Shown piece by piece: positions 3,961-7,956 of a stretch of 32,722 nucleotides of DNA. The stretch is from positions 1,141,051 through 1,173,772 of the forward strand of contig CP070729.1 of the NCBI GenBank assembly GCA_020351185.1, in the 5' to 3' direction. This DNA is from Dehalococcoidia bacterium. GTDB lineage: Bacteria; Chloroflexota; Dehalococcoidia; Dehalococcoidales; G020351185. A model generated the notes under the pieces. It searched no databases. It worked only from the letters and a program-made list of their open reading frames with translations, and was not told the origin of the DNA. A program made the position numbers and the translations under genes. Numbering within the stretch: position 1 is the first letter of the stretch; each line of letters begins with the position of its first letter.

Positions 3961-4671
3961 TTACATAGTCGCTAGTCCGTGAGCGGTAAGCAGTTTCTTA
4001 TCCGCCAAGATATTGGTGGTATTACCGTCAGCAACAATCATTCCCTGATCAATAATAACCATTCTTGGGCATAATTCTTTTACTAACTCTATGTCATGAG
4101 AGATTATTATCTTAGTAATTGATAATCCCATTAAAACGTCGACTAAATCCCGTTTACCCCTTGGGTCGAGGTTACTGGTGGGTTCATCAATCACTAGTAC
4201 TTCTGGCGCCATGGACAGAACGGTAGCTATGGCTACACGTCTCTTTTCACCGATGCTCAAGTGGTGAGGTGATCGTTTTTCAAAACCAGACATGCCTACC
4301 AATCCCAAAGCCCTTTCAACAGCCCGCTCAACTTCAAACCGACTGTAGCCCATGTTCATCGGCCCGAAGGCAACATCATCAAAAACAGTGGGTGAAAAAA
4401 GCTGGTCATCTGGATTCTGAAACACCAATCCCACGCGGTTACGTACCCATTTTAAGTTATTATCATCGATCGGTCTGCCCATTAACTTCACATGGCCATT
4501 GCTCCTCAATATGCCATTAAAATGAAGTACCAAAGTCGACTTACCTGCCCCGTTAGGACCAACAATAGCCACTGAATCCCCCTCGTATATACCAAGGCTG
4601 ACATTACTCAAGGCTTGCTGTCCGTCGGGATAACTGAAAGAGAGGTGTTCAACCGCTATTAATTCCCTCAT
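3961..4671 (-). CDS. cbiO: ECF-type cobalt/nickel transporter ATPase CbiO/NikO
   Basis: ATP-binding subunit, 236 aa, that powers the energy-coupling-factor transporter. Walker A GPNGAGKS is at residues 38-45, the Q-loop Gln at 85 within VFQNPDDQLF (the extended form typical of CbiO/EcfA), the ABC signature at 138-142 as LSIGE rather than LSGGQ, Walker B VLVIDEP near 158-164, and the switch His at 192 (SHD). The ATG follows GGAGAG and is 11 bases after the cbiQ stop. The ATPase would act as a dimer on the cytoplasmic face, coupled to CbiQ. Whether the ion is Co2+ or Ni2+ cannot be told from this subunit. Confidence 0.93.
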   Translation of the reverse strand: MRELIAVEHLSFSYPDGQQALSNVSLGIYEGDSVAIVGPNGAGKSTLVLHFNGILRSNGHVKLMGRPIDDNNLKWVRNRVGLVFQNPDDQLFSPTVFDDVAFGPMNMGYSRFEVERAVERALGLVGMSGFEKRSPHHLSIGEKRRVAIATVLSMAPEVLVIDEPTSNLDPRGKRDLVDVLMGLSITKIIISHDIELVKELCPRMVIIDQGMIVADGNTTNILADKKLLTAHGLATM

Positions 4672-4682
4672 AATTGCTCTCC

Positions 4683-5459
4683 TTAAAAAAACAGGGTAAA
4701 CAAGTTGATAATACCTAGCACCAGTATCATGCCGGTGATAAAAAGGGAATCGATGCGTCCAAACTGCAAACTGTTTAGTGTACGACTATGACCATCAAAG
4801 CCACGCGATACCATAGCGGTAAAGATCCGCTCTCCTCGTTCGAAACTGCGGATAAAAAGGGTACCGATAATATTACCTACCGTTCTCATCTGCCTTAACC
4901 ATCCACTCCTAAAACTACGACTATCCCTTGCCTGTTTCATACGCATTGCCTCATCGGTGATTAGAAAAATATAACGGTACATAAAGGAAAGTAATATTAT
5001 CATTACCCGTGGTATCCGCAACCGTTCTAGTCCTAAAAGCAAGCTGGCGAAATTGGTAGTCGAGGTGAGCAGAACCAAGCTTAGAATGGAAAGCCAAGAC
5101 TTGGCCAATATGCTCCATAAAAGTTCCAGTCCGTCGTGGGTAACTAAAAAAGTCCATCCCCAAGCCTTAAAACTTAAGGCTACTTCACCTTCTTTAAAAA
5201 AAGGAATGAATACAGCAACAAGCAAAACGAAGGGGATGATTACTAGCGAGCGCCTGAGTACATAGTGTAGTGGCACCCTTGAAATCAGAATCAATGTAAC
5301 GATGATAAAAAAATACATGCCATATGCTGGCCAGCTACCGGTAGGCATCAGTACTAGGGTTGCTATTAAAACTAGTGTTGCCAGTAACTTACTACGTGGG
5401 TCAAGCCGGTGTATAAGGCTGTTTCGGTTGCTATACTGATCGAGAAAGCTATGTTTCAT
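4683..5459 (-). CDS. cbiQ: ECF cobalt/nickel transporter transmembrane protein CbiQ/NikQ
   Basis: Integral membrane coupling subunit, 258 aa, of the EcfT/CbiQ family. LIHRLDPRSKLLATL near the N-terminus is the family's first signature. About five hydrophobic segments follow, and the cytoplasmic coupling helices contain the Ala-Arg-Gly style motifs KQARDSRSFRSG (near residue 177) and MVSRGFDGHSR (near 222), which dock on the ATPase grooves. It lies between the small PDGLE protein and CbiO with 18- and 11-base gaps, so the four genes form one operon reading cbiM to cbiO. Confidence 0.93.
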   Translation of the reverse strand: MKHSFLDQYSNRNSLIHRLDPRSKLLATLVLIATLVLMPTGSWPAYGMYFFIIVTLILISRVPLHYVLRRSLVIIPFVLLVAVFIPFFKEGEVALSFKAWGWTFLVTHDGLELLWSILAKSWLSILSLVLLTSTTNFASLLLGLERLRIPRVMIILLSFMYRYIFLITDEAMRMKQARDSRSFRSGWLRQMRTVGNIIGTLFIRSFERGERIFTAMVSRGFDGHSRTLNSLQFGRIDSLFITGMILVLGIINLFTLFF

Positions 5460-5477
5460 TTGCTATTCCATAATAAA

Positions 5478-5783
5478 TTATTCGATAATGTTACTACCTT
5501 GCTTTTTCAACTTTATTAACCACGCCAGTCCGTAGACTATGAAGAATAAAACTACTACTCCCAGCCAGCCTGCCAGAATTGTGGCTAATACCTCATTCTC
5601 TATCCCAGGGAAAATATAATCAGCTATGAACGCGAAAGGTGCTTCCTCAGCAGCACTTATAAAACCCTTGTCTTCAGCTACCTTCTCCAGTCCATCTGGG
5701 AAAGAGGATGCCAGAGGCGAAATGGTGGCTAAGACTAAGCATATAACCAGCGCTATTACCCACCATTTTCTGCTCATTTTCAT
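5478..5783 (-). CDS. PDGLE-domain transporter component (NikN/CbiN-like)
   Basis: A 101-aa membrane protein with an N-terminal hydrophobic segment (about residues 6-27), an extracytoplasmic loop that starts SSFPDGLEKVAED, and a second membrane segment (about 66-91) ending in KLKKQG. The PDGLE sequence names the family, which serves as the small accessory component of Ni/Co ECF transporters in the place of CbiN. It is 6 bases downstream of cbiM and 18 bases before cbiQ. In the CbiMNQO scheme this small protein helps load metal into CbiM. The PDGLE form is often linked with the NikMN type, which mildly favours nickel. Confidence 0.88.
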   Translation of the reverse strand: MKMSRKWWVIALVICLVLATISPLASSFPDGLEKVAEDKGFISAAEEAPFAFIADYIFPGIENEVLATILAGWLGVVVLFFIVYGLAWLIKLKKQGSNIIE

Positions 5784-5789
5784 TCTCTT

Positions 5790-6428
5790 CTAAATCCTCT
5801 GTAGATTAAGCAAGTCAGCTCTAGTTGACATTACCAAGTTGAGCACAACAATTGTAATTAATCCCTCTCCGAGACCTATCAGGGCATGAATCCCTGCCAT
5901 TGCTGGTAGTACCACTCCCATAGGGGATACTCCAGACAGAGCCAGCTCTATAGCGCAGGCGATTGATGCCAGCAGTACCGAACCCCAAGCGGCGACAAAA
6001 GTAGCCACTAGTTTGCTGCGACGGTTGTTGCCCAGTACAGTGTTTATTAGGTTATATATGTAATGAGCACCAAGGCAGGCGATAATACCCATATTCAGGA
6101 TATTTGCACCCAGGGCTAGCAAACCTCCATCTTGAAAGATTAAGCTCTGGGCAATCATTACAATACTCATTATTATCACTGCCGCCCATGGCCCAACTAG
6201 AATTGCCACCAGCGCGGCGCCTATGACATGGCCTGAAGTGCCACCAACAACGGGGAAGTTGAGCATCTGGGCGACAAACACAAAAGCTGCTAGAATACCC
6301 ATCATCGGAATATGTTTTTCACCTATTTTTTCTCTGGCTTTTCTGAGTGCATTAGCTACTCCACCGGCTGTTATAACATAAGTGGTACCCACTGCGGCAG
6401 CAACAAGAAAGCCGTCTGGAATGTGCAT
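5790..6428 (-). CDS. cbiM: ECF cobalt/nickel substrate-binding membrane protein CbiM/NikM
   Basis: S-component of the transporter, 212 aa. It starts exactly with MHIPDGFL, the invariant N-terminus whose His2 enters the metal site, so the ATG at 6428 is secure; a GAGAGGGAG ribosome binding site precedes it. The second signature LNFPVVGGTSGHVIGA (near residue 57) carries the other metal-binding His. Six or seven hydrophobic segments span the protein. It is the first gene of the transporter operon, and its promoter region holds a palindrome resembling one in front of the adjacent Fur-family gene, implying metal-dependent repression. Confidence 0.95.
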   Translation of the reverse strand: MHIPDGFLVAAAVGTTYVITAGGVANALRKAREKIGEKHIPMMGILAAFVFVAQMLNFPVVGGTSGHVIGAALVAILVGPWAAVIIMSIVMIAQSLIFQDGGLLALGANILNMGIIACLGAHYIYNLINTVLGNNRRSKLVATFVAAWGSVLLASIACAIELALSGVSPMGVVLPAMAGIHALIGLGEGLITIVVLNLVMSTRADLLNLQRI

Positions 6429-6448
6429 TAGCTCCCTCTCTTTCGCAT

Positions 6449-6474
6449 TTTATAGCAAATGCAAACGCTTGCAT
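6449..6474 (-). promoter_or_regulatory. cbiM promoter -10 with overlapping-region palindrome (Nur-like operator)
   Basis: On the minus strand an extended -10 (TGC then TATAAA, 6449-6454) lies about 20 bases before cbiM. Just upstream is an inverted repeat with arms ATGCAA (6459-6464) and TTGCAT (6469-6474) and a 4-base centre. It would sit between -35 and -10, where a bound repressor blocks polymerase. The TTGCA half resembles the TTGCAA half of the Streptomyces Nur box, although the spacing differs. Confidence 0.55.
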
Positions 6475-6489
6475 AATTGTAGAAAAAAA

Positions 6490-6918
6490 TTATTGACATT
6501 TACCGCACCGGCCAAAAATTGCTAAGTGGGCAAGGTCAGCTTTAAAGTTGTAGGTTTTATGCAAGGTATCCCGCAGCGGCAACAACACCGTTTCATTAAG
6601 GTCTGTAACACAGCCGCAGCTCTGGCAAACAAGATGGTGGTGGTGTCCTTTTTTAATACTATGGTATCGAACCCGACCATCGCCCATATCCGTTTCTGTA
6701 ACTAAACCAAGCTCTTTAAGTAGTTCGAGAGTACGGTATACAGTTGAAATATTGAGATGAGGATAACGATCGCAGACTCGGCTATATATCTCATCGGCGC
6801 TTATGTGATCGTCAGCCGCTTCTACCGCATCCAGTATCATCATTCGCTGAGGTGTCAAGCGGTAACCACGACGGCTCAGTTTGTTGATTATATCACTACT
6901 ATGATCCATTGGCCTCAA
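6490..6918 (-). CDS. Fur-family metalloregulator (Nur/Zur/Fur type)
   Basis: A 142-aa DNA-binding repressor. The winged helix spans residues about 12-90 with RRGYRLTPQRMMILD and the recognition helix region NISTVYRTLELL. The dimerisation domain has H86, a run of four His at 92-95, and two structural zinc pairs C98/C101 and C138/C141. The gene is divergent in promoter logic but on the same strand as cbiM, 61 bases upstream of it. A TTGCAA palindrome precedes both, so I infer it represses itself and the transporter in response to nickel or cobalt. The start is uncertain: TTG at 6918 or ATG at 6909; neither has an ideally spaced ribosome binding site. Confidence 0.9.
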   Translation of the reverse strand: MRPMDHSSDIINKLSRRGYRLTPQRMMILDAVEAADDHISADEIYSRVCDRYPHLNISTVYRTLELLKELGLVTETDMGDGRVRYHSIKKGHHHHLVCQSCGCVTDLNETVLLPLRDTLHKTYNFKADLAHLAIFGRCGKCQ

Positions 6919-6938
6919 TTATCTATTCATCATAGCGG

Positions 6939-6974
6939 ATAATAGCAGCAATTGCAACCCTTTGTAGTTGCAAT
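6939..6974 (-). promoter_or_regulatory. Promoter and palindromic operator of the Fur-family gene
   Basis: A perfect inverted repeat, ATTGCAAC (6951-6958) and GTTGCAAT (6967-6974) with an 8-base centre, lies directly upstream of an extended -10 (TGC then TATTAT, 6939-6944 on the minus strand). This is the layout of an autoregulated promoter. Each half contains TTGCAA, the half-site known for nickel regulator Nur. Confidence 0.6.
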
Positions 6975-6992
6975 CTGTCTCAATAAATTTGC

Positions 6993-7442
6993 CTAAAATT
7001 TATCCCGACTGTCAAGCATTATGGTTACTGGACCGTCGTTGTTTAGTTCCACCTGCATATACTGTTGAAAGCGCCCACAGGCAATCCTCAAACCTGTTGA
7101 GCTTGCCTTCTCAACAAACTTTGTAAATAATTCTTCTGCTTTCTCTGGTGGGGCCGCATTGGTAAAACTAGGTCTTCTTCCCCTTCTGGTATCGGCCAAC
7201 AAGGTAAGCTGACTTACCAGCAGTAATTCACCACCGATATCAAGTGCCGAAAGGTTAAATTTACCAGCTGTACCAGAGAAAATACGTTGGTTTATAATCT
7301 TTTGGATAAGGTAGTCTATATCCCTTTCGGTATCATCAATGGCTACACCAACAAAAACAACAAGACCGATGCCAATGCTGCCCACTTCTTTACCGGCAAT
7401 AGTAACTCGTGCAGAATTTACTCGTTGGAGTAACGCTTTCAT
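6993..7442 (-). CDS. dtd: D-aminoacyl-tRNA deacylase
   Basis: Cytosolic editing enzyme, 149 aa (normal length), that hydrolyses D-amino acids, and glycine mischarged on tRNA-Ala, from tRNA. The N-terminus MKALLQRVNSARVTI is diagnostic. The active-site motif SQxTL is present as SQLTLLAD near residue 77 (SQFTL is usual), and the Gly-cisPro motif appears as NNDGPVTIMLDS near the C-terminus, supplying the chiral selectivity. It is upstream of the Fur-family gene on the same strand, but the operator-bearing promoter between them suggests separate control. Confidence 0.96.
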   Translation of the reverse strand: MKALLQRVNSARVTIAGKEVGSIGIGLVVFVGVAIDDTERDIDYLIQKIINQRIFSGTAGKFNLSALDIGGELLLVSQLTLLADTRRGRRPSFTNAAPPEKAEELFTKFVEKASSTGLRIACGRFQQYMQVELNNDGPVTIMLDSRDKF

Positions 7443-7692: not shown

Positions 7693-7956
7693 ATGCAGTC
7701 AAGTCTAATCGGTAAGATTGAAAAAGCAAAACGTTATGCTCAAGAGACGGAACGCATTACCTTTTACGAGTTTTCAGCCAGCATCCGTGGTGATAACGAC
7801 AGCCACGTTACCGGATATAAGGACAGTAAATGGAACTGCACCTGTGACTTCTTTTCGCACTGGGGGTTATGCAGTCACACCATGACAATGGAAAAGGTAT
7901 TGGGCGGAATGCTACCAATGAAAGCTCTTACTACCAAATTCGAAAACGGCGATTGA
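7693..7956 (+). CDS. Small SWIM-type zinc-finger protein
   Basis: An 87-aa protein. The SWIM zinc motif CxCx(n)CxH is formed by C49, C51, C60 and H62 in WNCTCDFFSHWGLCSH. SWIM fingers bind DNA or protein partners and occur in SWI2/SNF2 ATPases, MuDR-type transposases and small free-standing proteins. Here there is no catalytic domain: residues 1-48 form a short helix and what look like beta strands, and a helix follows the finger. The ribosome binding site AAGGAGGT is one of the best in the window, with 7 bases from GGAGG to ATG, so it is probably well translated. Neighbours give no clear functional link; the specific role is unknown. Confidence 0.8.
   Translation: MQSSLIGKIEKAKRYAQETERITFYEFSASIRGDNDSHVTGYKDSKWNCTCDFFSHWGLCSHTMTMEKVLGGMLPMKALTTKFENGD

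Follow-up and report, generated by a model that had tools for sequence, protein, structure and literature searches.

In the genome of a Dehalococcoidia bacterium (GCA_020351185.1), a gene for a Fur-family regulator precedes an ECF-type nickel/cobalt transporter operon, and short TTGCAA-like palindromes lie in front of both. The locus raises the question of whether the regulator controls itself and the transporter through these palindromes, and which metal would be the signal. We analyzed the window, by which we mean the whole 32,722-nucleotide stretch of contig CP070729.1 containing the locus, together with the rest of the genome (1.38 Mb in one contig, 83% complete, with Dehalococcoidia MAGs as its closest named relatives) and 156 genomes of the order.

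Locus and gene content

On the minus strand of the window, the genes are found in the order dtd, Fur-family gene (fur), cbiM/nikM, a small subunit with a PDGLE domain, cbiQ and cbiO (Table 1), and the order dtd-fur-cbiMNQO is retained in many relatives. The first start codon listed for fur is an in-frame TTG at 6918, nine bases ahead of the ATG in Table 1. Homologs of the regulator at E<=1e-30 are present in 115 of the 156 genomes of the order. We found no riboswitch on cbiM in the window, and in the gap between fur and cbiM there is no clear intrinsic terminator and no strong hairpin. Right behind the fur stop codon there is a T run (AATTTTTTTAA, 6478-6490), which is kept in many fur-cbiM pairs of relatives. 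An 87-amino-acid ORF at 7693-7956 has no Pfam match, has conserved counterparts next to dtd and folC of relatives, and carries Cys and His residues (NCTCDFFSHWGLCSHTM) that resemble a SWIM-type zinc motif. Elsewhere in the genome there is a second Fur-family gene (L151 3939-4448; G000:C1:790307) with a 7-1-7-like sequence upstream, TGAAAATGTTTTTCA, in place of TTGCAA, which suggests that a separate Fur/Zur-type regulator is retained besides the Nur-like one.

Table 1. Coordinates of genes, promoter elements and predicted operator sites in the window.
Feature	Position	Strand	Remarks
dtd	6993-7442	-	
Fur-family (Nur-like) regulator gene	6490-6909	-	~139 aa from ATG at 6909; PF01475 FUR 5e-30
cbiM/nikM, substrate-specific subunit of ECF Ni/Co transporter	5790-6428	-	PF01891 3e-61
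Small subunit with PDGLE domain (NikN/CbiN-like)	5478-5783	-	PF13190
cbiQ/nikQ, ECF transmembrane subunit	4683-5459	-	TIGR02454 above its cut-off
cbiO/nikO, ECF ATPase	3961-4671	-	
Composite operator of fur, 32 bp	6952-6983	-	sense TTGAGA-N4-TTGCAA-CTACAA-N4-TTGCAA, 20/24
Inverted repeat ATTGCAAC-N8-GTTGCAAT	6951-6974		half-sites 2 and 4 of fur composite operator
Last half-site TTGCAA, predicted -35 hexamer of fur	6952-6957	-	promoter scan
Predicted -10 of fur, TATGAT	6929-6934	-	promoter scan; 17 bp from -35
Composite operator of cbiM	6443-6474	-	sense ATGCAA-N4-TTGCAT-TTGCTA-N4-ATGCGA, 19/24; overlaps predicted extended -10 (TGCTATAAA)
ATGCAA-N4-TTGCAT	6459-6474		half-sites 1 and 2 of cbiM composite operator

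Two palindromes, one operator type

The first-pass annotation had reported an 8-base inverted repeat at the regulator gene and a related palindrome at the cbiM promoter. Both are present: ATTGCAACCCTTTGTAGTTGCAAT at 6951-6974 is the sole perfect match in the genome, where the next best sequence has 2 mismatches, and ATGCAAACGCTTGCAT lies at 6459-6474. They turn out to be overlapping parts of a single composite operator type, a 32-bp layout with TTGCAA half-sites at offsets 0, 10, 16 and 26 (TTGCAA-N4-TTGCAA-YTRCAA-N4-TTGCAA). We rejected a description as two site types since both fit this layout, and the apparent difference in spacing between fur and cbiM comes from two partial views of the same kind of site. 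The alternative readings that had been offered with a 10-base spacer (TTGCAA-N10-TTGCAA at fur, TAGCAA-N10-TTGCAT at cbiM) were likewise correct partial views, and the half-site common to fur and cbiM agrees, as had been proposed, with that of Streptomyces Nur.

When the whole window was scanned with the 0/10/16/26 layout, the top two non-overlapping places were 6952 (20/24) and 6443 (19/24), the next ones scored 15, and none of 60 shuffled windows reached 19; the fur upstream regions from which we derived the layout included that of the window, so only for the cbiM site is this test independent. In the genome as a whole, the composite pattern with 3 mismatches allowed matched the fur site alone. 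A shorter pattern added the cbiM site and a weak match at 995110, which we rejected as its score in the position weight matrix is at background.

Conservation among relatives

The layout comes from 97 non-redundant fur homologs, whose upstream regions we aligned by expectation maximisation; started from two half-sites only, the procedure recovered a motif of four: TTATTGCAA-N4-TTGCAA-yTACAA-N4-TTGCAA. A run from random seeds had already given TTGCAA-N4-TTGyAA-TTGCAA. A 32-base-wide search landed in conserved sequence at the end of dtd, which shorter upstream stretches avoided. As a model-free test, we counted distances between TTGCAA-like half-sites (at most 1 mismatch) in 96 non-redundant fur upstream regions, with dinucleotide shuffles as the control. 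Distances of 6, 10, 16 and 26 bp occurred in 25, 60, 47 and 30 regions, respectively, versus about 1 expected (z 23 to 55). Minor maxima at 11 (z 6.8) and 27 (z 5.6) stem at least partly from members in which an outer half-site has moved by one base, giving N5 (e.g. loci L049, L050 and L103). The earlier suggestion of a new spacing class is borne out only in part: the basic dyad has N4, one base shorter than the N5 of Nur, but some relatives have N5 themselves, and the suggested N10 is a sub-reading of the composite site rather than a spacing class of a simple dyad.

Using a threshold of at least 17/24, we found sites upstream of 85/138 fur, 31/48 cbiM, 22/30 ZnuA/TroA-like and 4/9 NicO genes, which bears out the recurrence in relatives that the first-pass annotation had asked about. 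At the same threshold, there were no sites upstream of dtd (0/75), cbiQ (0/39), cbiO (0/33), folC (0/18) or the 87-amino-acid ORF (labeled 'zn', 0/28). A pattern scan across the order gave more than 70 matches in 54 of the 156 genomes, and the reversed control pattern gave zero. Four single-mismatch matches in that scan (L190, L258, L259 and L263) lie within genes or score low, and we took them as chance. Elsewhere in the phylum, further families and classes show the same layout (L212/L264, L216/L266, L217/L265), and, read by eye, divergent fur-cbiM pairs of Anaerolineae (L053, L054) also have the site. Several families in which fur is followed by methylmalonyl-CoA mutase lack a site upstream of fur. 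Six loci of one clade (L100, L110, L115, L126, L130, L131) have the regulator gene followed by methylmalonyl-CoA mutase genes and no operator of their own; several genomes of this clade keep the operator at transporters elsewhere (e.g. G105, G092). The one actinobacterial ortholog found, a Nonomuraea Nur ortholog (L272), lacks a TTGCAA pair in front of its gene.

Short inverted repeats are frequent in AT-rich intergenic DNA and TTGCAA looks like a -35 hexamer, so one might ask whether the palindromes arise by chance or from promoter composition and have no regulatory role. We consider this very improbable, given that the 0/10/16/26 spacing is fixed across many families, that the control genes lack the site and the control pattern has no matches, and that metal-transporter operons unlinked to fur carry sites.

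Operons carrying the operator

Across the order, the operator stands before fur and before four unrelated kinds of transporter, cbiM/nikMNQO, NicO, ZnuABC-like and NikA-type operons, also far from fur. Operators unlinked to fur were found at cbiMNQO (L187, L261, L262), at ZnuABC-like operons (L188, L189, L260) and at operons of methyltransferase and NikA-type binding protein genes (L191, L257, the former with DUF364). The NicO targets match PF03824 just under its cut-off and have the HAFDADH signature, and the NikA-type binding proteins have TIGR02294 (nickel_nikA) as their best NCBIfam match, also under its cut-off. In a well-supported second subfamily of the regulator, group B, the same site overlaps the start codon of the regulator gene, where the last half-site is partly explained by the coding of a conserved N-terminal Met-Ser-Cys. 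Group B regulators precede CbiMNQO (L148), ZnuABC-like (L149), NicO (L145), and FmdE-like and NikA-type genes (L150). The operator, its conservation, its overlap with promoters and the set of target operons are all computational results.

Some loci have further features. Unlinked transporter operons of one family in the order have two copies of the composite operator 100-102 bp apart (L187 2631/2731, L188 3468/3568, L189 2861/2963, L260 2687/2787, L261 2341/2443, L262 3372/3472), and this constant distance suggests looping or two promoters. The binding protein of the ZnuABC-like operon (L189 3040-6168 and similar loci) has the motif PPAQCPGHFD, and in several loci a SAM methyltransferase gene follows the operon; judged by its regulation, this operon is a candidate new nickel importer. 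In L191 (3233-6499) and L257 (862-3352), methyltransferase genes lie ahead of NikA-type binding proteins under the same operator layout, as does a DUF364 'heavy-metal chelation' gene in L191, and these loci possibly encode a chelator-based nickel uptake system. FmdE-type genes occur beside the regulator together with ABC transporters of the NikA type (L150 3210-3953) and of the siderophore/cobalamin type (L049 5519-6061).

Relationship of the regulator to Nur

Among solved proteins, the best match of the regulator is Streptomyces coelicolor Nur (3EYY), at 114.8 bits versus 90.3 for the next with the single sequence and 146.9 versus 128.4 with a 20-sequence profile; Zur entries are far below. 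The recognition helix, NISTVYRTLELL, is identical in the two proteins, and the first-pass assignment to a Nur-like Fur-family protein is upheld by these matches and by the Fur domain. In the tree, Nur falls, with weak support (81/68 at the fork), inside a broad, mostly Chloroflexota clade that also holds the window protein and has a weakly supported inner order.

We compared the metal ligands with those of Nur, whose Ni-site we take to be His70, His72 and His126 and whose M-site we take to be His33, His86, His88 and His90. The window protein, like nearly all of its orthologs, has E/D/H at the Ni-site positions, and the M-site positions are H/G/H/H. H81, H89 and D101 are conserved in the orthologs. 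The protein probably works like Nur, but because neither ligand set is reproduced we do not claim strict Nur membership, and its ligands leave the choice of metal unsettled. A review cautions that the Ni-site in the Nur crystal may be a crystallization artefact (PMC7055735).

Promoter overlap and proposed mechanism

The last TTGCAA of the fur operator serves as the predicted -35 hexamer of the gene, and this geometry fits the relatives: a -10 could be called in 63 fur promoters, and in 50 of them it begins 49 or 50 bases past the operator start, which makes the final TTGCAA the -35 hexamer, followed by a spacer of 17-18 bp. At cbiM, the operator overlaps the predicted extended -10, in agreement with the earlier placement of the palindrome at that promoter. 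The overlap with these two elements argues that bound protein would exclude RNA polymerase, and hence for repression.

We consider it likely that the gene at 6490-6909 encodes a Nur-like repressor, most likely responding to Ni2+, that represses itself and the ECF cbi/nikMNQO operon (3961-6428) via the 32-bp composite operator. When the metal is plentiful, the metallated dimer would sit on two end-to-end TTGCAA-N4-TTGCAA dyads and cover the fur -35 and the cbiM -10 region, blocking RNA polymerase; when it is scarce, the protein would leave the operator and the uptake system would be produced. Half-site centers are 10 bp apart, about one helical turn, which would suit one dimer per N4 dyad. From one dyad to the next there are 16 bp, about 1.5 turns, which would put two dimers on roughly opposite faces of the DNA. 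We infer from sequence the Fur-family protein as the binder, the two dimers per operator, the repression and the nickel signal.

Which metal

CODH/ACS, a nickel enzyme, is represented in the genome by its acetyl-CoA synthase domain CdhC. We did not find the corrin-ring genes CbiD and CbiC, an absence that is uncertain in a genome that is 83% complete; across the order, CbiC is above its cut-off in only 13 of the 156 genomes, and the regulator is in 115. Together with the lack of a riboswitch in the window, these findings favor nickel over cobalt. In addition, NikMNQO, NicO, NikA-type and ZnuABC-like systems interchange under one operator, which suggests that they share a substrate; the metal that the first three have in common is nickel (or cobalt). 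Nickel is thus the likelier substrate of the transporter, as the first-pass annotation had it, with the metal identified by inference; against it stand the Glu and Asp at Ni-site positions 70 and 72 and the Gly at position 86, as well as the presence of a ZnuABC-like transporter in the target set, for which a zinc sensor would also account.

Were the regulator a Zur, it would sense zinc, and every target transporter, cbiMNQO included, would serve zinc. The ZnuA/ABC-3 type operon is indeed a frequent target, and the conserved ligands H81, H88, H89, H90, D101 and H126 are as Zur-like as they are Nur-like. However, the Zur box has a 7-1-7 form, which TTGCAA does not, most of the targets do not match Zur either, including non-zinc systems such as cbi/nikMNQO, NicO and NikA-type binding proteins with the DUF364 metal-chelation protein, and Zur ranks well below Nur among the solved relatives, so we regard a zinc sensor as unlikely. 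Cobalt-responsive repression of cobalt uptake appears improbable too. CbiMNQO, NicO and NikA-type systems could all transport cobalt, B12 enzymes are important in the class, and one clade has fur beside the B12-dependent methylmalonyl-CoA mutase, but the corrin-ring genes are scarce, as described above, and salvaged corrinoids already contain their cobalt.

Significance

In the open-licence literature that we searched, we found no Fur-type nickel regulator in Chloroflexota and no description of nickel control in Dehalococcoidia, nor does Nur appear in a 2009 survey of nickel and cobalt use. RegPrecise has a collection for Chloroflexi that comprises five genomes. What is new here is a Nur-like circuit whose operator is doubled, whose ligand set differs and whose range of uptake targets is broader. 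With slightly less than even confidence, we propose that this nickel regulon extends across the Chloroflexota and is governed by Nur-like repressors, which have a metal site unlike that of Streptomyces Nur and act through a previously undescribed doubled operator, two abutting TTGCAA-N4-TTGCAA dyads that would probably bind one dimer each on roughly opposite faces. If so, the ZnuABC-like ABC transporter family with the SAM methyltransferase gene in its operon would be a new nickel importer. CODH/ACS and hydrogenases of Dehalococcoidia need nickel, and the class includes organohalide-respiring cleanup bacteria such as Dehalococcoides. The 32-bp operator predicts a regulon, suggests nickel as the substrate of several transporters whose names, 'cobalt' or 'zinc', are ambiguous, and predicts a way in which two Fur-family dimers share one site.

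Comparison with known systems

The closest known system is S. coelicolor Nur, which represses nickel transport (PMC7055735) and in Streptomyces binds the box tTGCaa-N5-ttGCAA (PMC3919588). The regulator shares with it the Fur family, the nearest solved sequence, the recognition helix and the TTGCAA half-site. In contrast to Nur, the operator here mostly has N4 and is doubled to four half-sites, H70/H72 are replaced by E/D and H86 by G, and the main targets are NikMNQO, ZnuABC-like, NicO and NikA-type systems, with no SOD gene seen at any site examined. Zur has the Fur fold, the structural Cys4 zinc site, a partly similar ligand set and a ZnuABC-like target in common with the regulator, but differs in its half-site and target set and is less similar in sequence. 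NikR is a ribbon-helix-helix protein with a fold unrelated to that of Fur, whereas the regulator here belongs to the Fur family, and the likeness between the two would lie in the repression of nickel uptake. That repression is nickel-dependent in NikR, for which control of NikMNQO has been predicted in other bacteria (PMC2667541).
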